Part shown: positions 2,791 to 26,259 of the stretch, one piece after another
How positions within the stretch are numbered: position 1 is the first letter of the stretch
How the letters are laid out: every line of letters begins with the position of its first letter
Virus record (IMG/VR): IMGVR_UViG_3300031885_000049
Location: 1 to 40,233 of that record
Length of the DNA: 40,233 bases
From: a virus
Reading direction: 5' to 3' (one strand)
Position numbers and translations under genes: made by a program
The notes under the pieces: model-generated
Seen by the model: only the letters and a program-made list of their open reading frames with translations
Database searches by the model: none
What the model was told of the DNA's origin: nothing

Positions 2791-2802
2791 ATTTTCCTTT
2801 TT

Positions 2803-2859
2803 CCGCGTTAGCGGTAAAGAATACTTCTATAATTTAATAATATAATGCTTGTATTCTTT
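2803..2859 (-). other. Two short inverted repeats between replication genes
   Basis: Directly after the stop of the replisome organiser gene lies an inverted repeat with 9-base arms, AAAGAATAC (2816-2824) and GTATTCTTT (2851-2859), around an AT-rich 26-base loop. Next to it is a perfect hairpin CCGC-GTTA-GCGG (2803-2814). On the minus strand they fill the spacer before the ribosome site of the 80-residue gene. No T-tract follows, so this is more likely an RNA processing or translation-control element than a terminator. Confidence 0.35.
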
Positions 2860-3346
2860 ATTCTTTCTCTATCTTTGGATCTAGCTCTATCTTTAACTCT
2901 GGTGTACTTTTGTTGTACATTTGTACGCGTTTTATTGTTTTATTTAAACTTAAGATTCTATCCTTTTTATTTTCTTCAATTTCTTTTCGGTAAGCACGAA
3001 TACGATCAGCCTCTGTGGAACTTTCGCCTATAAAATTTTGAATTTCAGTCATGTAAATAGTCATATCGTCTAATATTTCCAAAAGATTTAAACTTTTAAA
3101 TACTTTAATAGCAGCCGTTATTGTTTCTTGTTTATGTCCAAGAACGCTCGAAAGAGTTGCTATTTCATAAGGAATCATATCCGTTAACATTAATTTACCG
3201 TCACGCGAAAGACTTCGTAAATACATTTTCTGCATTATACAAATATATTCATATCCATTCTGGAGTCCTTCAATAACTTTAATTTCTGGTAAATCAAAAA
3301 AATTATCTTTTAATTTTAAATAAAAATACTTTTTACTTACTGTCAT
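2858..3346 (-). CDS. Phage replisome organiser, N-terminal domain protein
   Basis: A 162-residue protein whose first ~100 residues match the phage replisome organiser N-terminal domain. It begins KKYFYLKLKDNFFDLPEIK and continues with MLTDMIPYEIATLSSVLGH and KSLNLLEI, a winged-helix fold that binds phage origins. The C-terminal third is charged and low-complexity, shorter than in full-length organisers. It would recognise the origin and recruit the helicase encoded two genes on. The ATG at 3346 has only a weak ribosome site and lies just after the structured leader at 3355-3505, so that RNA may control its expression. Confidence 0.85.
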   Translation of the reverse strand: MTVSKKYFYLKLKDNFFDLPEIKVIEGLQNGYEYICIMQKMYLRSLSRDGKLMLTDMIPYEIATLSSVLGHKQETITAAIKVFKSLNLLEILDDMTIYMTEIQNFIGESSTEADRIRAYRKEIEENKKDRILSLNKTIKRVQMYNKSTPELKIELDPKIEKE

Positions 3347-3354
3347 TTAGTTTA

Positions 3355-3505
3355 ACTCAAAAATATAGACAGGCTGAAACCTTTCGATTCCAGCCTGCCT
3401 TAAACGGTATGCTCATAGCGGGGAAGCCAGTATGCAGTACCGTAAAATTCAAAGATTCAAATGATTTTATTCTTGGTTGATTCACTGGCTTTCCCCTTAT
3501 TTGAC
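3355..3505 (-). ncRNA. Structured RNA leader, pseudoknot-like, ending in a terminator hairpin
   Basis: Downstream of a good promoter, the minus strand can form helix a: GGGGAA-A-GCCAGT (3496-3484) with ACTGGCTTCCCC (3431-3420), 12 bp with one bulged A. Helix b: ACGGTA-C-TGC (3443-3434) pairs with GCATACCGT (3412-3404), 9 bp with one bulged C. The order a-b-a'-b' makes an H-type pseudoknot or two competing folds. A third hairpin follows, CAGGCTG (3397-3391) with CAGCCTG (3376-3370), then a U-rich tail (TATATTTTT) ending just before the replisome organiser gene. It could be a free small RNA or an attenuating leader for the replication genes. Confidence 0.55.
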
Positions 3506-3510
3506 TTTCA

Positions 3511-3539
3511 AATATAATCTTGTTTTTTGAAAATTGCAA
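3511..3539 (-). promoter_or_regulatory. Promoter upstream of structured leader
   Basis: TTGCAA (3534-3539) and TATATT (3511-3516) are 17 bases apart on the minus strand. Read another way, TTG-N20-TATATTTG exactly fits the Bacteroidota pattern TTG/TAnnTTTG. Transcription would begin near 3504, at the 5' edge of the structured RNA. Confidence 0.6.
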
Positions 3540-3553
3540 GTGAATAATTCATT

Positions 3554-3739
3554 TTATTCCAATCCGTTTTCTTTGGCTGTATATTCATAGCATGGCATAC
3601 CTTTAGCAACAGAAAATACATCACTCAAAACACAAGCCTTATCCAAATGAGGAAATGTCCAATATTTACAAGTATCATTGCAAAGAAAAGTTGTTTTTCC
3701 CGCTGCTTTATTTAATTTATCATTTATTAGATGTGCCAT
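3554..3739 (-). CDS. Small cysteine-containing protein
   Basis: A 61-residue protein with Cys at FLCNDTC, ACVLS and MPCYEY, a spacing that could hold a metal or disulfide. The segment CKYWTFPHLDKACVLSDVFSV then KGMPCYEY resembles short phage proteins of unknown role. It sits just upstream of the promoter for the replication module and ends the early gene run. Confidence 0.55.
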   Translation of the reverse strand: MAHLINDKLNKAAGKTTFLCNDTCKYWTFPHLDKACVLSDVFSVAKGMPCYEYTAKENGLE

Positions 3740-3833
3740 TCATTACCTCAAATCTATTCTTTAACTTTTCGTAAAATAAGTTTATACTTTTGACTTTGGC
3801 ATATTCCCCTCTATTCTTTAACTTCCCAGTCAT
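3720..3833 (-). CDS. Possible 37-residue ORF in the gap 3740-3898
   Basis: A short basic frame (MTGKLKNRGEYAKV...) without a clear ribosome site that overlaps the next gene by 20 bases. It is the only frame of any length in the 159-base gap 3740-3898, which otherwise holds tiny frames only. Weak call. Confidence 0.2.
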   Translation of the reverse strand: MTGKLKNRGEYAKVKSINLFYEKLKNRFEVMNGTSNK

Positions 3834-3898
3834 TTAAAATCATATATGGCATGTACAAGCCTGCATAACATCACCACCTTTCACTTATCCATTTTCAT

Positions 3899-4228
3899 TT
3901 AACCTAAATCTAAATCAGGATTATCGTTTGGTTGATATATTTTTTTACAAACAGGACATCGTACAAGATTTTTTTTACATTCTCCTTGTGCAATCAATTT
4001 TTTATATCGCAACCAATCATTAACTGCCAAATATTCCCAGCCGTTAGGTTGACCAATTTCAAAAAATATATGAGCCAATCCACGCCAACTTAAATTTGCT
4101 TGAAAAAATCCATATTCTCCGTCTTCATCTTTTTGCGCGTAATGTAGAATCGCCGCTTCATAAAGTTCCTTCGGAGATGCGGTTTTCATCTCCGCGATAA
4201 TTATTTCACATTCGGATTCAGTCATCAT
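3899..4228 (-). CDS. Hypothetical protein with C-terminal CxxC motif
   Basis: A 109-residue protein, helical in its first 90 residues, with a C-terminal RCPVCKKIYQP zinc-knuckle half-site. Another Cys lies at GECKKN before it, so a four-ligand site would need further residues. The first or second ATG (4228 or 4225) may be used. I do not recognise the family; its place in the early cluster suggests a host-takeover or replication accessory role. Confidence 0.55.
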   Translation of the reverse strand: MMTESECEIIIAEMKTASPKELYEAAILHYAQKDEDGEYGFFQANLSWRGLAHIFFEIGQPNGWEYLAVNDWLRYKKLIAQGECKKNLVRCPVCKKIYQPNDNPDLDLG

Positions 4229-4405
4229 TCAATTCCCTTTCTCCGAGAAAATCACTTCCCGGACATTGGCATTTATAGGCCCAGTAACTTTTATCTTACC
4301 ATTTTCAAGTGCTATTATTGCTATCGCAATTTCGGCACTACCTTTGTAATTTATAAGTAACGATTCATCTGGTTCGATCTCAATACGTTCAATTTTTATA
4401 GACAT
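4229..4405 (-). CDS. 58-residue hypothetical protein
   Basis: Starts at ATG 4405 inside the end of the upstream gene and stops two bases before the next start, so it fits the coupled operon. The sequence (MSIKIERIEIEPDES..., AEIAIAIIALENGKIKV) suggests a small beta-alpha protein with no Cys or membrane segment. No family recognised. Confidence 0.55.
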   Translation of the reverse strand: MSIKIERIEIEPDESLLINYKGSAEIAIAIIALENGKIKVTGPINANVREVIFSEKGN

Positions 4406-4661
4406 CATTCCGGCCTTTCAATCTGTCAAGATTAGATTTTTCTCGAACTTCAATCCCCAGTTCTTTTATTCCTTCAATCAATTCTATCACCTTTTCCCAA
4501 GATGGTTCGGGTAGATTATTTCCTTTTGAATCGGCACCGATGTTCACAAATTCAGGTTTGATTTTATCTATCACTTGCAACACGGGAATAACATCAAAAT
4601 CACAAATAGGTTCTATTGTAATTCCAATATACATATTTCCTTTTACTTTTCCGAGTGGCAT
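4389..4661 (-). CDS. Truncated radical-SAM-like protein, C-terminal part only
   Basis: A 90-residue product from ATG 4661; ATG 4625 behind AAAGGAAAT is an alternative start. It contains YIGITIEPICDFD, PEFVNIGADSKG and NLPEPSWEKVIELIEGI followed by KSNLDR. I associate this pattern with the final strands of phage and archaeal radical-SAM proteins. The cluster-binding CxxxCxxC and the first half of the barrel are absent upstream, where a membrane-protein gene occupies another frame. The open frame continues upstream to a TTG at 4811, overlapping that gene, but shows no SAM motif. Likely a remnant or a domain with a new role. Confidence 0.5.
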   Translation of the reverse strand: MPLGKVKGNMYIGITIEPICDFDVIPVLQVIDKIKPEFVNIGADSKGNNLPEPSWEKVIELIEGIKELGIEVREKSNLDRLKGRNDVYKN

Positions 4662-4665
4662 TTCT

Positions 4666-4854
4666 TTACTTCTTCTTTTTCCAAATGAATGAATATCGCG
4701 GTACAAAATTCCCCCGAATTTGCTTATGCCATTTAAACAATATGCATAATCCAAAATTAATGACTTCACCACGTTCGATTTTTTCATAGAAACTGCATCC
4801 AAACCATCCAATCAAAACACCTAATAGCATACAAATAACACTAAACATTATCAT
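4666..4854 (-). CDS. Small membrane protein
   Basis: A 62-residue protein. An N-terminal membrane segment (MFSVICMLLGVLIGWFGCSFY) is followed by a basic cytoplasmic tail ending in KKKK. The start overlaps the stop of the HNH gene by 14 bases. Resembles small inner-membrane phage proteins of unknown role. Confidence 0.55.
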   Translation of the reverse strand: MIMFSVICMLLGVLIGWFGCSFYEKIERGEVINFGLCILFKWHKQIRGNFVPRYSFIWKKKK

Positions 4855-5317
4855 TATCTTTCAATTTTGCAAATTCCTGCTCGAGATGCAGCCGCGTCAG
4901 ATAAAGATCGGTTGTATTCTGCTTCATGAGATATAGACGATCGTAGATGTCCGCGCCGCGCTTCTCTATTATCAACCTACGGTATTTCTCCTCGTGCTTA
5001 CCATGGATGCCGCGACTATGCTCCCATTCGGTTAAGCAGATTCCATTATCAAGAGAAAAGCGAAGGCAATAGTTTGGTTTCCGTAAAATGTGATGTGGAT
5101 GGAGCACAGTGCCGCCTTTCATGAATTGATGTCCAGGCTTTCCTGAGAGTTCGGACCTGTAGCCGGCGCGTAAAAAAATGATTTCTCTCCATAACCGCTC
5201 GCAAGCATCGAAGTCGGATTCGCCTTTCGGAAATAAAACTTTGGATTTTTCCGACCGTTTTTGCTTGCGGAGTTTGGCCTTGGCTATCTTGACCAAGGCT
5301 TCATCGTAGATTTTCAT
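4841..5317 (-). CDS. HNH-type, NinG-like endonuclease (putative)
   Basis: A 158-residue basic protein. After a Lys/Arg-rich N-terminus and RLWREIIFLRAGYRSEL comes LHPHHILRKPNYCLRFSLDNGICL, then WEHSRGIHG and YRRLIIEKRG. The HH dyad, the N-GICL turn and a downstream His match the beta-beta-alpha metal nuclease plan used by HNH enzymes and NinG-type proteins, which carry RF-dNg-- in the same place. The Cys zinc ligands of NinG are mostly missing. It may cut branched or single-stranded DNA during phage recombination, consistent with the ERF gene in the same region. It overlaps the methyltransferase gene by an ATGA. Confidence 0.7.
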   Translation of the reverse strand: MKIYDEALVKIAKAKLRKQKRSEKSKVLFPKGESDFDACERLWREIIFLRAGYRSELSGKPGHQFMKGGTVLHPHHILRKPNYCLRFSLDNGICLTEWEHSRGIHGKHEEKYRRLIIEKRGADIYDRLYLMKQNTTDLYLTRLHLEQEFAKLKDNDNV

Positions 5318-5832
5318 AATTCAAGATTCGTTTGGTTTAAAATTTTCTCATGATCAATAAATTTTAATTCTATTTTATTTTTATATCCATATTGTAATTG
5401 TAAAATACATGGTTGTATGCGGATTTTTTTAAATGTTGATCTTGGCAAATGAATCACGAGTTTTAATCCAAATTTTATGAGTTCATTTGTTCTACTATCA
5501 CAATTGATTAATGTAAACCAAGGCATCAATGCAATAATATTATCACTCATTTGCATTGCTATTTTTAAAAATTGATGTTCAATACTTTTTTTAAAAGGTG
5601 GATTCATTACAATAGCATCTACTCGTAAAAATGGATCAAGTTCTTCAAATTTCTCCGGTGCAATTACTTTATAACCGCGTTGTCTTAATATATTAACAAG
5701 TCTTCCTTCGCCAGGTGTTGGTTCGAGAATTTGAGAAACACCATTAGGTATAAGATCCGCCATAATTTCACATGTCCACAATGGAGTTTGATATCGTTCT
5801 TCAAATGGCATAGAATAAGATAATTCATTCAT
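5314..5832 (-). CDS. DNA adenine-type methyltransferase
   Basis: A 172-residue SAM-dependent methyltransferase. Motif I is LEPTPGEGRLV near 36-46 and the catalytic motif IV is MNPPF near 76-80, the NPPF form typical of N6-adenine or N4-cytosine DNA enzymes. No separate target-recognition domain is visible, so specificity may come from the short C-terminal part. With no restriction gene alongside, it is probably an orphan enzyme protecting phage DNA or marking it for packaging or replication. The start overlaps the upstream stop by ATGA. Confidence 0.85.
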   Translation of the reverse strand: MNELSYSMPFEERYQTPLWTCEIMADLIPNGVSQILEPTPGEGRLVNILRQRGYKVIAPEKFEELDPFLRVDAIVMNPPFKKSIEHQFLKIAMQMSDNIIALMPWFTLINCDSRTNELIKFGLKLVIHLPRSTFKKIRIQPCILQLQYGYKNKIELKFIDHEKILNQTNLEL

Positions 5833-5993
5833 TCTTTTTTCTGTCTGAGGAATTCGTTTTCTTTAAATTCAATAAATTTCATCGCCGATTCATAACCATT
5901 TATTTGGAAAAGTATTAAAACCATTTTTCGTTGAGTTCCACTTAACTTTTTTTCATTCATTAAGTGGATTAATTTTTTGCATTGGTTAATCAT
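5829..5993 (-). CDS. 54-residue hypothetical protein
   Basis: Starts at ATG 5993 with a poor ribosome site (GGAATCAAAAAA) and ends in an ATGA overlap with the methyltransferase gene. A charged helical protein (MINQCKKLIHLMNEKKLSGTQ..., ending in QKKE). Coupling to the methyltransferase is the best evidence that it is expressed. Confidence 0.5.
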   Translation of the reverse strand: MINQCKKLIHLMNEKKLSGTQRKMVLILFQINGYESAMKFIEFKENEFLRQKKE

Positions 5994-6024
5994 TTTTTTG
6001 ATTCCATTTTTTTCTCAATCGTTT

Positions 6025-6189
6025 TTACATCAAAATCAATCCGACGATGATCGCCGCCAGTATCGCTATCATCGCCCAAAGCGGCCAGTCGGTTTCGCCG
6101 GCGCGGTGAATATACTGATAGCATGACAGACAATAACCTTCGAACATTTTCTGTCCGGCATCAAAACAGTTTGAAGTTTTGCATTTCAT
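6025..6189 (-). CDS. Small zinc-finger-like membrane protein
   Basis: A 54-residue protein starting in an ATGA overlap with the upstream gene. The first half has four Cys (C3, C8, and CLSC at 20-23), fitting a zinc ribbon. Residues of about 36-54 (PLWAMIAILAAIIVGLILM) form one membrane helix ending at the C-terminus. The layout suggests a membrane-tethered zinc domain facing the cytoplasm. Function unknown. Confidence 0.55.
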   Translation of the reverse strand: MKCKTSNCFDAGQKMFEGYCLSCYQYIHRAGETDWPLWAMIAILAAIIVGLILM

Positions 6190-6338
6190 TTTTGGCCTTC
6201 TTTGTTTTGGCAGATGAGGTCTTGCACGTCAATCCCCTTTTTGCGATCGTCGTCAGACAGATCACAGTCATCGATATTGCCCCAGATCCCGAACAGGTTG
6301 CCACTGACCTTGGATATTCTTTTTAATGCACGTTTCAT
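6186..6338 (-). CDS. Short heptad-repeat protein, paralogue of the 25-repeat protein
   Basis: A 50-residue protein starting MKRALKRI, then two heptads (SKVSGNL, FGIWGNI), then DDCDLSDDDRKKGIDVQDL and a tail ICQNKEGQK. The first eight residues and the whole DDCDL...VQDL block are identical to those of the 207-residue protein at 11634-12257, and the DNA is nearly identical too. The two differ mainly in repeat number (2 against 25) and in the last residues. Ribosome site GAGGGAAAGAAA precedes ATG 6338. Function unknown. Confidence 0.7.
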   Translation of the reverse strand: MKRALKRISKVSGNLFGIWGNIDDCDLSDDDRKKGIDVQDLICQNKEGQK

Positions 6339-6353
6339 TTTCTTTCCCTCGTT

Positions 6354-6626
6354 TCAATCAAGTTGTTCAAAAATATCTTTAAGTCCAAGATCTTTAAATA
6401 AATTAAGAGATACCAGTTTATAACCCAGTGGATTAAGTCCTGTCATTTTAGCAAATAATTTCCATTTGGTGTTTTGTTGTCGAATGACAGTTCTAAAACT
6501 ATCATTGGTATGTAGACCCGGAAATAGTTCTTTTATTTCGGTATGAAATTCTTGAAGTATTTTTCCTAAATTTTCATTTGATGGATTTTGTTTATATTGT
6601 TCTGCAAATTCGATATGAGTTTTCAT
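6354..6626 (-). CDS. Hypothetical protein
   Basis: A 90-residue soluble, mostly helical protein (MKTHIEFAEQYKQNPSNENLG..., SLNLFKDLGLKDIFEQLD). It is translationally coupled to the upstream zinc-finger gene through an ATGA overlap. No family recognised. Confidence 0.55.
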   Translation of the reverse strand: MKTHIEFAEQYKQNPSNENLGKILQEFHTEIKELFPGLHTNDSFRTVIRQQNTKWKLFAKMTGLNPLGYKLVSLNLFKDLGLKDIFEQLD

Positions 6627-7090
6627 GTCTTTCGCTCCCTCACTTCAATGAATCCCGCAAGATCGGGATCGTTTGTTCTTCTTTGTTCGATAACTGATTC
6701 CCATTCTGGATGATTCATTAAAATAAGTGCAACATAAAAATAAGTGAATCGATCATTCATTCCTTTAGATGTTCCCAAGATATTCACTCGTTCCCATCGT
6801 ATTCTTTCCCATGGGGCGCGAATACCATAGTATTTATATTCGAGATCAACAATATAATGATAACAATCTCGTTCTAATTCAATCAATACATCGGGATTCT
6901 TTTCATGGAAGACTTCAAAGAGTGGCAGGTATTTTTGATGTCCTCGCGCGACACGAGTCTGGAGCCAGTGACGGATACCATGTTGGGAACAACAATACTT
7001 TTCCTGTCTGCCCCTCAAAATCTTCAGACATCCGGGAAGTTCACAAATTAGATCCTTGATGGGTTCGCCGAATAGGTTTTCTTGCTCCAT
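6623..7090 (-). CDS. Zinc-binding phage protein with FERIRW-like core
   Basis: A 155-residue protein from ATG 7090 behind GGGAG. The N-terminus has a C2CH-type site: CELPGC, YCCSQH. The middle and end (VFHEKNPDVLIEL, YYGIRAPWERIRWERVN, NDRFTYFYVALILMNHPEW, EQRR) resemble a widespread phage family of unknown role with the order NP-v / fERIRW / n--y--y-ar----P / RR. Possibly nucleic-acid binding. A TTG four codons upstream is an alternative start. Confidence 0.6.
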   Translation of the reverse strand: MEQENLFGEPIKDLICELPGCLKILRGRQEKYCCSQHGIRHWLQTRVARGHQKYLPLFEVFHEKNPDVLIELERDCYHYIVDLEYKYYGIRAPWERIRWERVNILGTSKGMNDRFTYFYVALILMNHPEWESVIEQRRTNDPDLAGFIEVRERKT

Positions 7091-7215
7091 AATATCTCCC
7101 AAAAGCCGTTTTTAGGTGAAACTACATCTCGGATAAGTTTTAAACATCGCTTAATAATCACTTGCAAGCTCGTAGTCAAACTTTTAGAGTCATTTTTGCG
7201 CTTTTTTGTATCCAC
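7048..7215 (-). CDS. Possible 55-residue basic protein with GTG start
   Basis: A frame starting at GTG 7215 behind a strong AGGAGG site nine bases away. It encodes a Lys-rich protein (DTKKRKNDSKSLTTSLQV..., CLKLIRDVVSPKNGFWEIL) and overlaps the next gene by 43 bases. The same ribosome site could start a 13-residue peptide from the ATG one base in front. Either product would be the first one made downstream of the structured RNA at 7283-7381. Confidence 0.35.
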   Translation of the reverse strand: MDTKKRKNDSKSLTTSLQVIIKRCLKLIRDVVSPKNGFWEILWSKKTYSANPSRI

Positions 7216-7282
7216 ATACAGACCCCTCCTAAATAGACCTATTAGAAGCCTTAAATCGCATAATCATATTTCCAAAATAACA

Positions 7283-7381
7283 AAGGCGCGAGCTGCGATC
7301 CTTGGGAGATTATCGCCCGCGCCTTATTATGCCTTATTAAATAGGTATAATCAAACGTTAAATGTTTTCCCAAGAATCGCA
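7283..7381 (-). ncRNA. Structured RNA leader with competing or pseudoknotted helices
   Basis: Right at the expected start of a promoter's transcript, TGCGATTCTTGGGA (7381-7368) can pair with TCCCAAGGATCGCA (7307-7294): 14 bp with one G-U. Between the arms lies AAGGCGCG (7325-7318), which pairs with CGCGCCTT (7290-7283), giving the order a-b-a'-b'. Alternatively AAGGCGCG-g-GCGAT folds back on ATCGC-agct-CGCGCCTT as one long hairpin, followed by an imperfect T-tract (TTTGTTATTTT). This is the arrangement of an attenuator or of a stable pseudoknotted small RNA. The 5' single-stranded loop is about 42 bases, close to the one in the RNA at 3355-3505. Confidence 0.55.
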
Positions 7382-7386
7382 TCTAT

Positions 7387-7415
7387 AATATACTCCATTA
7401 TGGCCTCAAAATCAA
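7387..7415 (-). promoter_or_regulatory. Promoter for the structured RNA at 7283-7381
   Basis: TTGATT (7410-7415) and TATATT (7387-7392) are separated by exactly 17 bases on the minus strand. Initiation would fall at about 7380, the first base of helix a of the RNA. It overlaps the stop of the 45-residue gene. Confidence 0.5.
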
Positions 7416-7417
7416 GT

Positions 7418-7555
7418 CTATTTTTCCGGCGGTAAATTCTTTTGCCAGACTCGCCGGACTTTTTCTTTCTTGCCAGTCTGATGGTGTATTCCCTTGTCGT
7501 GATTTTTGCTTTTTCGACGAAAACCACAAGAACAATATTTGGCTGTCCTTTTCAT
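7418..7555 (-). CDS. 45-residue basic protein
   Basis: Starts at ATG 7555 after GAAAGGATGAATC. A Lys/Arg/His-rich protein with an N-terminal CSC pair (YCSCGFRRKSKNHDKG). The charge suggests RNA or DNA binding, but one Cys pair cannot complete a zinc site alone. It lies between the DUF1367-like gene and the promoter for the structured RNA. Confidence 0.5.
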   Translation of the reverse strand: MKRTAKYCSCGFRRKSKNHDKGIHHQTGKKEKVRRVWQKNLPPEK

Positions 7556-7589
7556 GATTCATCCTTTCGATTTAAACTTCCGGATTTTA

Positions 7590-8012
7590 TTAAGAATATC
7601 CTAACACTTGTAAAATTAATTCATCTCGGTTTAATTCTCCGATTAGCTTTCCGGCAACTGCCGCGTCAATAATATCATTAAAAACTTTTTCCCGTTTTGT
7701 ATCGTCCATTTTTGCGAATGACATCGAATCGGGTATATAAACAGTCTGACCATCCGGCAGGATAATCATCTTGCAATGACCGAGACGAATGAGCAAGGCA
7801 TACCGGAATATATTAAAACTGTCATACTTGTCCTGATTGTCGAAAAGTGTCTTGATTAAAGACATGCATTTTCGGTGGAATGCCGGATTAACGTTTTTGT
7901 AAATTTTAACCAGCACTTCCTCGCCCAGCCCGATCTTATCCGTCACTTCTTTGGCTATGTCATCAGCTGGGATAAAACCGGATGGAGTTTTTACTAAGGA
8001 TATTTTATCCAT
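7590..8012 (-). CDS. DUF1367-family phage protein
   Basis: A 140-residue protein. The pattern KNVNPAFHRKCMSLIKTLFDNQDKY, then FRYALLIRLGHCKM, then IPDSMSFAKMDDTKREKVFNDII matches DUF1367, a family found next to recombination genes in many temperate and lytic phages. No enzyme activity is established. It is coupled (1-base gap) to the coiled-coil gene and the ERF gene upstream, so a part in single-strand annealing or replication is plausible. Confidence 0.85.
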   Translation of the reverse strand: MDKISLVKTPSGFIPADDIAKEVTDKIGLGEEVLVKIYKNVNPAFHRKCMSLIKTLFDNQDKYDSFNIFRYALLIRLGHCKMIILPDGQTVYIPDSMSFAKMDDTKREKVFNDIIDAAVAGKLIGELNRDELILQVLGYS

Positions 8013-8729
8013 TTACTCCTCAAAAAATTCTACGCCCGGGACTGGCTGGTTGTTGTGATTGAGTTTCGCATATCCATTCAGCCAAGAAATGTTCGCCTCG
8101 ACTGCGAAGGCCTCGACCTGGCGATCCGCAACTGCTGCGCAGAGTTGGACGATGTCTATAACTCTGGCCTTCCACTTCAGGCCATAGGTGCGTTTGTCAA
8201 GGGATATATCAGATACTTTCGCCGCTTCGAGATCCGCCTGGGCGAATTCCTCGACCATTTTCGCGCCGACGGTATCCCCTGATTTTTTCAATTGATCCGC
8301 AACAGCGAGGCGCTTTTTCTCCTCCTGCAATGCAAGATCAGTCTTACGGTCTATCTCCGCTTTGACATAAGCCTTAATTGTGGTTACCGCTTTCTCATGA
8401 TATTCAGACAACGGTTTTTTGACCTGCTCGGCCAACATGACGATCGCGCTCCGTGTTGCTTCGGCTGCCGCCTTAGCCATCTTGGCTTTGGTAAGCGAAT
8501 CGGCAAAAAGGCCGTCGATATATTTCATGCCCTTTATGGCACGTTCGTCAAAACTTTGGACGATTTTCAGTTGATCGGTGTTCGTTATAACCGTGGCCGG
8601 AACCGCCTGCTGAATAAAATTGCCTACCGCTGTTGACGCCTCGATTTTGGCTATATCTGCCCCATAGGGAAGTTCGCCTTGTATGGTAGCAACTTCCGGC
8701 TCGTCGAATATTCCCTTGTTATTTTCCAT
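8013..8729 (-). CDS. Coiled-coil protein adjacent to ERF recombinase
   Basis: A 238-residue acidic, Ala-rich helical protein. The long heptad-compatible region at about 50-170 (DERAIKGMKYIDGLF..., AAAEATRSAIVMLAEQVKKPLSEYHEKA, EEKKRLAVADQLKK) is followed by a small folded C-terminus. Similar proteins with the 'k-i-----l------a---------a---l--pl-e' pattern accompany ERF or RecT genes in phages and may act as a nuclease inhibitor or annealing cofactor; that role is inference. It overlaps the ERF gene by 11 bases. Confidence 0.6.
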   Translation of the reverse strand: MENNKGIFDEPEVATIQGELPYGADIAKIEASTAVGNFIQQAVPATVITNTDQLKIVQSFDERAIKGMKYIDGLFADSLTKAKMAKAAAEATRSAIVMLAEQVKKPLSEYHEKAVTTIKAYVKAEIDRKTDLALQEEKKRLAVADQLKKSGDTVGAKMVEEFAQADLEAAKVSDISLDKRTYGLKWKARVIDIVQLCAAVADRQVEAFAVEANISWLNGYAKLNHNNQPVPGVEFFEE

Positions 8730-11633: not shown

Positions 11634-12257
11634 TCATCCGGTCAATATCAAAAGGTCTTGCACGTCAATCCCCTTTTTGCGATCATCGTCAGACAGATCA
11701 CAGTCATCGATATTGCCCCAGACCCCGAACAGGTTGCCCCTGACCCCGGACAGGTCGCCCCTGATCTCAGACAGGTTGCCACTGACCCCGGATAGGTCGC
11801 CACTGATCCCGGACAGGTTGCCACTGACCCCGGATAGGTCGCCACTGACCCCGAACAGGTTGCCCCAGACCCCGGACAGGTCGCCCCTGATCTCAGACAG
11901 GTTGCCACTGACCCCGGATAGGTTGCCCCAGACCCAGGACAGGTCGCCCCTGATCTCAGACAGGTTGCCACTGACCCCGGACAGGTCGCCACTGATCCCG
12001 GACAGGTTGCCACTGACCCCGGATAGGTCGCCACTGATCTCAGACAGGTTGCCCCAGACCCCGGACAGGTCGCCCCTGATCTCAGACAGGTTGCCACTGA
12101 CCCCGGATAGGTTGCCCCAGACCCAGGACAGGTCGCCCCTGATCTCAGACAGGTTGCCACTGACCCCGGACAGGTCGCCACTGATCCCGGACAGGTTGCC
12201 ACTGACCTTGGATAGGTCGCCACTGACCCCGGATATTCTTTTTAATGCACGTTTCAT
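11634..12257 (-). CDS. 25-heptad repeat protein
   Basis: A 207-residue protein: an eight-residue start (MKRALKRI), 25 uninterrupted heptads (residues 9-183) of consensus SG-(V/I)-(S/R/W)-G-(D/N)-L, and a tail DDCDLSDDDRKKGIDVQDL. GDL and GNL heptads alternate almost strictly. Repeats with one hydrophobic pair and one Gly per turn suggest a stacked solenoid or beta-helix rather than a coiled coil. ATG 12257 has an AAGGAG site, and the same start and end occur in the two-heptad gene at 6186-6338, which supports this frame. Function unknown; an extended binding scaffold or decoy is possible. Confidence 0.75.
   Translation of the reverse strand: MKRALKRISGVSGDLSKVSGNLSGISGDLSGVSGNLSEIRGDLSWVWGNLSGVSGNLSEIRGDLSGVWGNLSEISGDLSGVSGNLSGISGDLSGVSGNLSEIRGDLSWVWGNLSGVSGNLSEIRGDLSGVWGNLFGVSGDLSGVSGNLSGISGDLSGVSGNLSEIRGDLSGVRGNLFGVWGNIDDCDLSDDDRKKGIDVQDLLILTG
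11709..12233 (-). repeat. Tandem 21-bp repeat with 189-bp higher-order unit
   Basis: 25 copies of a 21-bp unit. Nine-unit blocks 12003-12191 and 11814-12002 are identical except for a few bases in one unit, and 11751-11813 starts a third block. The near identity marks recent unequal crossing-over or replication slippage. All reading frames stay open because 21 is a multiple of three, which produces spurious frames on the plus strand. Confidence 0.95.
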
Positions 12258-12319: not shown

Positions 12320-12604
12320 TTACCGGTTGGCCTCGTCAGGAGAGATTATCATTGATAATATTTTTAGGATTTCCGCTCTGACTGTGGATTTGCGTGGTTT
12401 GTCACTGCCATTATCCCATATATCTTTTTTGGTATCCAATTCTCCGATTGGAGACGGTGCTGCTGCCATACAACCCGTATGATGATTATAGACCGTTTCC
12501 CCGTCAACGGAATAAGTTACTACGTAGTAACCATTGCCGCTTGGAGTTGTGGACTTGCAACGTGTCGTTGCCTCGATTGTCTGTCCATTGATATTGATTT
12601 TCAT
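12320..12604 (-). CDS. Hypothetical protein
   Basis: A 94-residue protein. The first half (MKININGQTIEATTRCKST, GYYVVTYSVDGETVYNHHTGC) is beta-rich; the C-terminal part is helical. It is coupled to the upstream gene by ATGA. A GC hairpin (ACCCCC-TTGC-GGGGGT, 12295-12310) lies just after its stop but lacks a T-tract on the minus strand. No family recognised. Confidence 0.55.
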   Translation of the reverse strand: MKININGQTIEATTRCKSTTPSGNGYYVVTYSVDGETVYNHHTGCMAAAPSPIGELDTKKDIWDNGSDKPRKSTVRAEILKILSMIISPDEANR

Positions 12605-22010: not shown

Positions 22011-23072
22011 TTATTCGTAAGCCACTGCGTTAGGATCTCTGATTGTAATCTGCCAATTTGTACAGGTCATTCCCGTGGGCGCCGCCGACGCTTTCATTGG
22101 CATGAATTTCAACGTTTGAGGTATTCTGCCTTGACCTGAGATATTCGCATCCGGCACGTCAAGACGCATTCTCGGTATTTCGATTTTGATATCATGGTTT
22201 GCATCGAGTGACCAGAACAATTCCGCCTTTGCTTCCGTTTCATCCTGGAAAGCTTCCAGGTATGTCAAGGCATTCAAGTCTCCGAGTTCGATTTCGAGCG
22301 ATTGTTTCGGGATTCCATTTTCAATCGGTTCGGCGGACTCCCACTCATTCGCCTGCGCATTGCGTGAGGCCCATTCCGCATCAAACCCACGATCAAAAAC
22401 AAACGACACTTTTTTAACCGCCAGGTTATCACTTGCCGAAAGCGCGCCGGCAACCCAATTCAGGCGAAGTCTTAAAGCGCCGAACGGAACCTGAGCCGGG
22501 AGTGCCGAAGAAATCTGCATATGTGTCACCGCGTCAATGTTTGCAGTTGTAACCGTACAGTCCGCACCCATTCTCATGGCGTTACAGATTGTGCGTATAA
22601 TCAATCGCATATACCCTTGACCGTCCGGACCTTCGAATGTGATCCCTATCGGTTTAACGGCAGGATATTCAAAAAGCAATTCGCCCGCCGCCGGACCTAA
22701 CTGGCCGGCCAACGATCCAAACATATCCGATCCGTCAATCGCATCCAAAAGACTTATTTCGTGTATATAAGGATCGCCTGATCCTGATTTTGAGTCAAGT
22801 CCCATGAGCTGTGCAAGGAATGACCACATCCTGCCCGAATATCGTGCAATCATATTGATTTCAGGCCGCACGTTCTTTCGGGCATTTTTGATGACTTCAT
22901 ACCAAGCATATCCCGCCGCCGGATCCGGCACGACTTCACGCGGATCAACCAATGGTCCGAAATTTTCCGCCAGAATCATATCACCTATCGTTGGCACGAC
23001 GATGTTTCCCCACGTACTCGTGGTTTGTTCGTAAGCCAAAATTGCCGATTTCGAAGTTATTGACGCTGCCAT
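22011..23072 (-). CDS. Tail tube protein
   Basis: A 353-residue protein just upstream of the chaperones, where the major tail protein lies in siphoviruses. It starts SAILAYEQTTSTWG and ends PMKASAAPTGMTCTNWQI...DPNAVAYE. The C-terminal half of the protein at 23742-25682 repeats the same sequence plan at roughly 40-45% identity by eye, including GYAW-E, YSGR-WSF-AQLMGLDS and FQDET. That fits a duplicated tube gene. Strong AAGGAG site before ATG 23072. Confidence 0.75.
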   Translation of the reverse strand: MAASITSKSAILAYEQTTSTWGNIVVPTIGDMILAENFGPLVDPREVVPDPAAGYAWYEVIKNARKNVRPEINMIARYSGRMWSFLAQLMGLDSKSGSGDPYIHEISLLDAIDGSDMFGSLAGQLGPAAGELLFEYPAVKPIGITFEGPDGQGYMRLIIRTICNAMRMGADCTVTTANIDAVTHMQISSALPAQVPFGALRLRLNWVAGALSASDNLAVKKVSFVFDRGFDAEWASRNAQANEWESAEPIENGIPKQSLEIELGDLNALTYLEAFQDETEAKAELFWSLDANHDIKIEIPRMRLDVPDANISGQGRIPQTLKFMPMKASAAPTGMTCTNWQITIRDPNAVAYE

Positions 23073-23248: not shown

Positions 23249-23745
23249 GTGACTTTCTCCTCATGATTAATGTTAAACATGACCCCGGCGGCATCCACGT
23301 AAACGTTCTGTTCCATGCCCACCCAAGGCGAATCAAATCTCAATCCCGCAAATATGCAGATATCAACCTGGAAATTAAGATTGTCGGTTGCCTTGATAGT
23401 CCTGATTATCGCATCCTGATATCGCCAGAGTCTTTTATTGAGTCGCTCTTGATCGTCATCCATGCATACTATCCAAATCGTGAGCCGGCTTTCGATGAAC
23501 AACGTTTCATTCGTATATTCGCCGCCGCTGTCCGATTCCGGCCAAATCACAAGCGCCGGAAGTTCACCCGCATCGAAAACATATCTCTCCCCCACTGCGT
23601 AAGTTTTTATATCGTCAAGTATAAAATCCAATGAGTATTCGGTATCAATTATATCGCATTTCGAATTTATTCCTGTTGTGGCGTCCGACAGAATCGCCTT
23701 GATCTGTAAGATAACAGGTTCGATAAATTTTCCGACTTGTGTCAT
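23245..23745 (-). CDS. Tail terminator / tail completion protein
   Basis: A 166-residue protein in the tail-terminator position. Its pattern (FIEPVILQIKAIL..., ERYVFDAGELPALVIWPESD, IESRLTIWIVCMDD, WRYQDAIIRTI) matches the alpha-beta fold of proteins that cap the tail tube: small N-terminal helix, strand LPALVI, strand LTIWIV, long helix. It lies between the two tail-tube paralogues, overlapping the upstream one by four bases. Confidence 0.7.
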   Translation of the reverse strand: MTQVGKFIEPVILQIKAILSDATTGINSKCDIIDTEYSLDFILDDIKTYAVGERYVFDAGELPALVIWPESDSGGEYTNETLFIESRLTIWIVCMDDDQERLNKRLWRYQDAIIRTIKATDNLNFQVDICIFAGLRFDSPWVGMEQNVYVDAAGVMFNINHEEKVT

Positions 23746-25682
23746 TCGTAAGCCGTCCCATTGGCATCATTGAGTATAATCTGCCAATTTGTGCAAGACA
23801 TTCCGTCCGGCGCGGCGGAGACTTTCATCGGCAACATCTCGATTCGTTGGCCGATTCGTTGATCTCCGACGATTGTCGGTTCGCTTTTTTCGACTTTCAA
23901 TGCCGGATATTGTATTAATAAATTATAATTTGCATCAAGTTGAAAATATAAATCCGCCTTTTTAATCGTTTCGTCCTGGAAACTTTCGAGCCATGCAAAA
24001 GCCAGATCGCCCAAATCGATGGTTAATTTTTGTATTGGTATCCCGCTTTCGATGGGTTCCGCAGATGACCATTTTAAATTAACCGATCCCTGTCCTGTAA
24101 ATTCCTGTCCGTATCTGCGCTCCAAATCGATTTGAAATTTTTTAACGGGAATTATATCATTTGATCCGAGTGCGGAATCTGCAAAATTATTTGCCCTGAA
24201 TCTAAGGCATCCGAACGGAATCGCCGGAGGAAGTCCACCATTGAGTTGCAAATGAGTCACCGAAGACATATCCGAAATCGTAAACGCGCAATCTGAACCA
24301 TATTTGAGATGATCCGCAATCATTCCGGCAATTATCGAAACGTAACCATGTTCATCAGGTCCGAAAATGGAAATCTTTTTTGGCTTAACCGACGGCCATT
24401 CAAATCTCAATCCTACCGTGGTCATTCCAAGAACGGCATAAAGAGATCCGAATAAATCAGACCCATCAATCTGGTCAAGTAAAATCATTTTGTGTTCGTA
24501 AGGATCGGCGCCGGCTAATGAATCCAATCCCATCAACTGAGCGACGAATGACCACTGTCTGCCCGAATATCTGAGTTGCGCTTCAATTTCCGGCTCGATT
24601 AATTTTCTGCCAAGTTCAAACGCTTCATTCCAGGCATAGCCGGAAGCTTTATTAAAAAGAATTTCCCTGCCTTCAATCAATCCACGCAAATCTTTAACAA
24701 GTATTTGATCGCCTGATCCGGGAGCAACGGCCGTTCCCCAAATCGAATTTGTTTGTTCATATGCAATTTTACGTTCGCGATTTATTTTACTGAGATATGT
24801 ATCAGTTCCCGGGATAAGAATATCGATAATGGTTCCGTCCTGTGGGAGTTTATAAATATATATCCAATCCACTTTCATTTTGTATCCCGAAGGGTATGAA
24901 GTCGTATAATGGCGGAATGATATTATCTTACAACTATCTGAAGTATTGATCGTACTTTCCGATATGAATTCTTTTTCCAAAACATAATTAAAATATGTTT
25001 TAATCTTTTTGGATGTTATTTTATCTATTTGATATATATCATAATTTTCATTACATGCCGTTGCTGCATAAGATTGATTATCAGTGGGAGATACAAAATT
25101 TGCTTTCCACGCGAATGCACTGTTAACTATGAAATAATATGATGCCCAGATTCCATCGACAAAATTACCCCATCCTGCATATCTCTCTGGTTGATTATAA
25201 GCCATATTTCCCTTAATTACCGCCATACTGAATCTTGTTCCATAACCATTTCCCCAGGTACCTATATTTTTTGCCCTGCTCGAATCGCCTGCAATTTCCA
25301 TTTTTCCGTCAACGATCGTCGTGAAAAAACAAGTCCACTTCGATAAATCTCCAGAAAAATCATCAAAAAATGAAAAAGTATTCACTCCATCCGAAACATC
25401 CGCCGCACTGGAATTCCCAAAATACATATAAATGGTTTTTCCCGCGAGTAAGATTGATGGAACCTTGATCCAAAAATACGCAATCGTTGAAGCGGTATAT
25501 CTGTCTCGATATTGATAAAGCAAAGTTTCTTCATCGGAATCCGTGAATCGAATATCTGAAAAATCCGCATTCATACCGCTCTGCCATGCGACTTGAATCT
25601 CATAATTGAGATTTATTTGGTCTGCTGTCATTGCGGGAAGCAAAACCATTTTTTTGAATGAATATCCGGCCAACCAACCCAT
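23742..25682 (-). CDS. Second tail-tube paralogue fused to a DUF2341/lectin-like domain
   Basis: A 646-residue protein from ATG 25682, which follows the previous stop at once; a TTG 24 bases upstream is less likely. Residues ~1-300 carry a DUF2341-type module (YEIQVAWQSGMNADFSDIRFTDSDEETLLYQY, YFWIKVPSI, IYMYFGNSSAADVSD) and a concanavalin-like sandwich with FFDDFSGDLSKW. From ~308 to the end it aligns with the tail tube protein at 22011-23072. A minor tube subunit displaying a sugar-binding domain along the tail is the most direct reading. Confidence 0.75.
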   Translation of the reverse strand: MGWLAGYSFKKMVLLPAMTADQINLNYEIQVAWQSGMNADFSDIRFTDSDEETLLYQYRDRYTASTIAYFWIKVPSILLAGKTIYMYFGNSSAADVSDGVNTFSFFDDFSGDLSKWTCFFTTIVDGKMEIAGDSSRAKNIGTWGNGYGTRFSMAVIKGNMAYNQPERYAGWGNFVDGIWASYYFIVNSAFAWKANFVSPTDNQSYAATACNENYDIYQIDKITSKKIKTYFNYVLEKEFISESTINTSDSCKIISFRHYTTSYPSGYKMKVDWIYIYKLPQDGTIIDILIPGTDTYLSKINRERKIAYEQTNSIWGTAVAPGSGDQILVKDLRGLIEGREILFNKASGYAWNEAFELGRKLIEPEIEAQLRYSGRQWSFVAQLMGLDSLAGADPYEHKMILLDQIDGSDLFGSLYAVLGMTTVGLRFEWPSVKPKKISIFGPDEHGYVSIIAGMIADHLKYGSDCAFTISDMSSVTHLQLNGGLPPAIPFGCLRFRANNFADSALGSNDIIPVKKFQIDLERRYGQEFTGQGSVNLKWSSAEPIESGIPIQKLTIDLGDLAFAWLESFQDETIKKADLYFQLDANYNLLIQYPALKVEKSEPTIVGDQRIGQRIEMLPMKVSAAPDGMSCTNWQIILNDANGTAYE

Positions 25683-25683
25683 C

Positions 25684-26259
25684 TTATATTGTCCAATTCC
25701 TTTCAAGTGTCGGCGGCGGATTTACCGTCACTTTGTCGATTACCTTATTCCATTTCTGCGCTGAATTGACCATGTGTCTTTGTATGATTCGCATCCATTC
25801 ATGGATATTCTTTATTGTCGGATCGATGGTTCTCCGCGTGGCAACCTTACCCTTGATCCCACCACCTTTTTGCCAATGCAGAGGATAATCAAAACCGTCT
25901 TTTGATTTGACATCGGAACCGATATTGATTTTCCAGGTATCCCCGACTTTTGACACGGTTCGAATGTTTCCGGATGATTGCGAAGTCAAACTCCGAAAAA
26001 GTAGTCCCTTCGAAATCATGATGAAATTTCCGAGACCGTGTTTTTGTTTCCATTGCCGATACTTTTCCGAAATCTGCGGCCACGTTCCGCTTTGCCCGGT
26101 TCCGCCGCCGGTCATAAATAACTTTTTCTCGACGACAAAAAAATCAGTCACGATCTGCGCGGCGGCATCCTTCATAACATTAAGGGATAGGTCTCGATGG
26201 AAATGATCCATATCGGCGACCCATTCCTTTGTATTCGGCCATGACATCCTTATCTGCAT
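25684..26259 (-). CDS. Virion morphogenesis (Mu gpG-like) tail completion protein
   Basis: A 191-residue protein. KDAAAQIVTDFFVVEKKLF, SGTWPQISEKYRQWKQKHG, and MISKGLLFRSLTSQS match the phage virion morphogenesis family (Mu gpG-like), which joins head to tail. The family core W-p-s---y---K---g----L--tG-L--S is present, with SKG in place of the usual tG. It lies after the connector-like gene, as expected. A short neck protein of the other gp10-like families is the alternative. Confidence 0.8.
   Translation of the reverse strand: MQIRMSWPNTKEWVADMDHFHRDLSLNVMKDAAAQIVTDFFVVEKKLFMTGGGTGQSGTWPQISEKYRQWKQKHGLGNFIMISKGLLFRSLTSQSSGNIRTVSKVGDTWKINIGSDVKSKDGFDYPLHWQKGGGIKGKVATRRTIDPTIKNIHEWMRIIQRHMVNSAQKWNKVIDKVTVNPPPTLERNWTI

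Follow-up and report, generated by a model that had tools for sequence, protein, structure and literature searches.

Leaders with interleaved hairpins ahead of phage replication genes: a probable RNA switch, so far undescribed, that turns viral DNA copying on and off

A replisome organiser gene in a 40,233-nucleotide stretch of viral DNA (IMG/VR record IMGVR_UViG_3300031885_000049, positions 1 to 40,233; hereafter, the window) is preceded by a region, 3355-3505, which a sequence-only reading had described as two interleaved helices (a-b-a'-b') followed by a terminator-like hairpin. The question raised by this locus is whether such a leader acts on replication as an RNA, and whether it belongs to an RNA class. 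All the claimed parts were found, on the minus strand, in the order promoter-like stretch, arm a, a first loop of about 40 nt as described, arm b, a', b', terminator hairpin and organiser ATG (Table 1). Helix a had the 12 bp and single bulge ascribed to it, and the terminator-like hairpin (15 pairs) indeed lay directly before the organiser, about 20 nt from the start codon. Helix b, 9 bp with one bulge, was present too but barely above chance, and because alternative interleaved b helices of comparable energy existed, it was not established from this sequence alone. The leader folded with a minimum free energy of -51.3 kcal/mol, compared to -33.5 kcal/mol in shuffles (z = -4.2). Promoter-like matches in the region 2800-8100 were about as frequent as in shuffles (21 vs. 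19.5), making the promoter consensus alone a weak indicator.

The same reading had compared this element with a second one of similar layout (given there as 7283-7381). This sister element, at 7265-7386, was likewise on the minus strand. Its interleaved helices were far above chance and stronger than those of the window element, and helix b, with 16 bp, was longer than first reported. The two leaders had no 12-mer in common. In a scan of the whole window, these two loci were the top two interleaved pairs in the plus-strand reading, and several coding regions scored equally high in the minus-strand reading.

Table 1. Positions of the leader parts and of the presumed target gene in the window.
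Feature	Positions	Strand	Sequence	Remark
Window promoter-like stretch, sigma70-type	3511..3539	-	TTGCAA-17-TATATT	consensus match only
Window arm a	3484..3496	-	GGGGAAAGCCAGT	pairs with a'; 2/3000 shuffles, or 0/3000 given b
Window arm b	3434..3443	-	ACGGTACTGC	marginal, 111/3000 shuffles
Window arm a'	3420..3431	-	ACTGGCTTCCCC	within the b:b' loop; pairs with a
Window arm b'	3404..3412	-	GCATACCGT	pairs with b
Window intrinsic terminator hairpin	3367..3400	-	ATATTTTTGA (tail)	15 pairs, U-rich tail
Replisome organiser gene, presumed target	2858..3346	-		phrog_5968, E 2.3e-42; ATG at 3346
Sister promoter	7387..7415	-	TTGATT-17-TATATT	consensus match
Sister arm a	7368..7380	-	GCGATTCTTGGGA	0/3000 shuffles
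Sister arm b	7315..7330	-	ATAATAAGGCGCGGGC	1/3000 shuffles
Sister arm a'	7295..7307	-	TCCCAAGGATCGC	pairs with arm a
Sister arm b'	7277..7293	-	GCTCGCGCCTTTGTTAT	U-rich 3' end

Loci carrying relatives of the organiser were gathered from IMG/VR and GTDB genomes, giving 143 distinct upstream regions. An upstream gap of at least 80 nt was present at 36 of these, the remaining loci being tight operons, and five gapped loci showed leaders with the order promoter, a, b, a', b' and U-run, in sequences unrelated to one another: G004 (records L024/L195), G005 (L026/L196), G006 (L039/L199), G007 (L074/L200) and G008 (L106/L201). Scans of whole records revealed further leaders of the same layout in G005 (at 4855 and 2691), G007 (at 12323, minus strand) and G008 (at 1654, minus strand). 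The leaders of G005 recurred in G010 (L271), its near relative. The organisers of G006 and G008 were 74% identical; their leaders were alike in layout and unlike in sequence. Two candidates (L204:6109 and L196:13801) were discarded for a real or apparent overlap with coding sequence. Two other loci were suggestive only of a translational version: upstream of position 1242 in L048, b' would cover the organiser Shine-Dalgarno sequence (155 of 5000 shuffles), and upstream of 2873 in L145, an Erysipelotrichaceae MAG, two hairpins had complementary loops and no U-run (293 of 5000).

Four relatives of the window phage were identified by their major capsid protein, two of them long (G001 and G002). 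G001, whose capsid protein was 59% identical, carried a leader (L205:15099-15199) upstream of genes for a zinc-ribbon protein and Erf; none of 3000 shuffles equalled its a, and none its b. This leader and the sister element link the window phage group more firmly to the class than does the element at 3355-3505, which is its loosest and least typical member: its helix b is weak, its 5' hairpin doubtful, and its terminator a hairpin separate from b:b', unlike the relatives, where b:b' is the terminator. Regarding other genes of the window, two tandem related structural genes (22011-23072 and 23742-25706, minus strand), one with an N-terminal extension, matched identical places in G001 and G002. 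A 207-aa repeat protein (11634-12257, minus strand; start VSGDLSGVSGNLSGI) and a 50-aa protein (6186-6338, minus strand) began alike and ended alike (GNIDDCDLSDDDRKKGIDVQDL) and differed in the number of internal repeats, forming a repeat-expanded paralogue pair.

Across phages, the leaders were mostly located ahead of DNA replication or recombination genes. Among the products encoded downstream were organiser and SSB, an HTH-like protein and DnaB helicase, Erf, an unknown protein of 200 aa, an HNH endonuclease, and a ParB-like protein with a large terminase behind it (these two named by inspection only). Ten leaders had 17-27 nt, and the eleventh 35 nt, between the end of the last hairpin arm and the start codon, a space too short for another promoter. 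The terminator must therefore be conditional or leaky, and the gene depends on read-through. The suggestion that the window element may switch replication on fits this anatomy; the second suggestion, an RNA that acts only as a free molecule, is less probable, although termination would still be expected to release a product of about 140 nt.

Five leaders (G004, G005b, G005c, G008a and G008b) had a within a 5' hairpin loop and a' within either the terminal or an internal loop of the terminator hairpin, so that kissing would be possible; the cleanest case was G005b, ATTGACT[GATAGGC]AGTCAAT with GCCTATC. Several members had linkers of only 0-2 nt between arms, with which both full helices cannot coexist as a classical pseudoknot. 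For these members, an H-type pseudoknot in which both helices are complete was rejected, leaving alternate or partial helices, or a kissing complex.

The a:a' complementarity, scored as the upstream match to the b loop, given b, and compared with 3000 shuffles, was above chance in 7 of 11 leaders. No shuffle was as good for both window elements and G001; one was for G005b, three for G008a, and 21 each for G004 and G008b. G005a, G006, G007a and G007b were not significant in this test (133-273 of 3000). A combined pattern of promoter, 5' hairpin and kissing terminator attained a score of 18 at ten sites in the 306 kb of leader phages. Two shuffles of these phages gave 0 and 2 such sites, and 1068 kb of control organiser loci gave two; this enrichment is an upper estimate, since the ten matches include likely false positives, some within coding sequence, and the phages were partly picked for the pattern.

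Covariation, which the sequence-only reading had named as a check on the helices, was analysed in relatives only. The window's DnaB was absent from G001-G003 and its organiser from G001 and G002, leaving the window element without a homologue for alignment. G005 and G010, genomes mostly 93-97% identical, shared a leader upstream of the HTH and DnaB genes in which 39 of 126 columns differed (about 70% identity). Thirty-six of its 37 proposed pairs were kept, four of them by double compensatory changes. These four were located in the loop-loop helix (one pair, TTGACA:TGTCAA to TTGACC:GGTCAA), the terminator stem (two pairs) and an inner hairpin (one pair); the pair changes included G-U. Since only two sequences were compared and the inner part of the alignment was adjusted by hand, this is good but limited evidence. 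In the same two genomes (L196 and L274), the organiser protein was only 50% identical behind a leader of about 96% identity, which suggests that the organiser gene was exchanged while the leader was retained.

The recurrence of the layout in other phages and the covariation in one homologous pair lend independent support to the earlier idea that two unlike sequences with one layout hint at an RNA class, and make this class hypothesis credible. None of the leaders reached the gathering score in Rfam, where the best window matches were at noise level, and no description of the interleaved-hairpin leader layout was found in the open-access literature. The pattern of window helix a had no match in IMG/VR, and a DNA similarity search of INPHARED with the window locus matched the organiser coding region alone. 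The pattern of the G005a leader was found in G005 and G010 only, the G005 leaders were not found in INPHARED, and additional organiser relatives yielded no new leaders. Since other uncultured phages carry the same layout, in unrelated letters, ahead of their replication and recombination genes, the leader is probably an RNA switch, not described before, by which viral DNA copying is turned on or off.

The reading that we favour, and which receives about half of our confidence, takes the element to be the 5' leader of the organiser transcript and a cis-acting conditional terminator (attenuator). The transcript of the organiser operon would begin at the promoter-like stretch, and segment a would emerge first from the RNA polymerase and pair with a' once this is made, before b' is available. 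As a' sits within the b:b' hairpin, the terminator in the relatives, a:a' pairing would hinder or delay the folding of b:b', and the polymerase would read into the gene. Occupancy of a or of its loop by a phage or host protein or another RNA, or altered transcription speed, would let the terminator form and turn replication off. Relatives whose a and a' occupy, respectively, the loop of a 5' hairpin and the loop region of the terminator may represent a kissing-loop form of the same device; some members could form kissing complex and terminator together, in which case a:a' need not block termination. Computation supports the anatomy, the recurrence across phages and the preservation of pairs between two homologous leaders; that the leader is transcribed, which way the switch works and what triggers it we infer. 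More tentatively, the leaders may form a regulon of replication and recombination operons in some uncultured phages, each behind a promoter-proximal terminator whose loop complements an earlier part of its own transcript, either a 5' segment or a hairpin loop; what is inherited would be the layout and not the sequence, and one factor recognising kissing or interleaved helices would switch the whole set.

The nearest functional precedent is the immunity of phage P4, in which a leader RNA with mutually complementary segments halts transcription before the replication genes (PMC4825925). The likeness lies in the replication genes being turned off through premature termination in a leader with complementary segments (CI RNA, seqA, seqC); the P4 CI RNA, however, is processed and trans-acting, whereas each leader here has a single complementary pair able to function in cis, and there is no sequence relationship. 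A trans-acting RNA of this kind, stable and processed as in P4 CI and P1 c4 immunity, would be a terminated leader of about 140 nt that accumulates and uses a or a' to pair with newly made leader transcripts, enforcing termination before the replication genes. It would account for the targets and for leader sequences that diverge quickly while the layout stays constant. This reading is nevertheless unlikely: a and a' are on one RNA and would pair in cis first, the a segments of leaders in the same genome were unrelated, and no processed RNA is known.

We also doubt, to much the same degree, that the window element lies outside the class as an ordinary operon terminator with a promoter-like stretch and a chance hairpin. 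The marginal helix b, the shuffle-like frequency of promoter matches and the coding regions with interleaved pairs of like energy agree with this; helix a and the folding energy of the leader speak against it, as do the very strong sister element and a position in agreement with that in the relatives (20 nt to the start codon).

The nearest RNA-only antiterminator is HK022 put, a promoter-proximal phage RNA structure of two hairpins which affects termination (PMC9378689). In a similar manner, the folded leader, being just downstream of a promoter and ahead of a terminator, might bind RNA polymerase and carry it through this and later terminators. We hold this to be improbable: put consists of two separate hairpins, its two copies resemble each other in sequence and it lacks a terminator of its own, whereas the leaders have no common sequence, their arms interleave and contain or abut a terminator present in every leader, and they precede several separate operons.

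Other known systems share single traits with the leaders. In loop-loop riboswitches such as the cobalamin type, the loop of an upstream domain pairs with the loop of the regulatory hairpin (the expression platform), as might occur here, though the leaders had no conserved aptamer sequence and no Rfam match. In pT181-type attenuators, a replication gene is likewise located behind a conditional terminator, but an antisense RNA is required and the competing helices share a strand, while a:a' and b:b' share none. Control of the leader by an opposite-strand counter-transcript, in the manner of pT181 or pIP501, would agree with attenuation ahead of a replication gene and is very improbable, given that 10 of 13 leaders had no antisense promoter matching at least 9 of 12 positions, those of the others were weak, and the window element had a single weak and distant candidate. 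Inverted repeats working as DNA, for example as a replication origin, would suit the neighbouring replication genes but are scarcely plausible, as the same layout precedes HNH-endonuclease, ParB-like and DnaB genes, promoter and U-run lie on one strand, and the pair changes include G-U.

A class kept by layout rather than by sequence would be missed by ordinary covariance-model searches, and could offer a compact natural design for loop-controlled terminators. If real, it would represent an RNA class preserved by layout, not sequence, and some phages would gate their DNA replication through promoter-proximal attenuation, at several operons at once.
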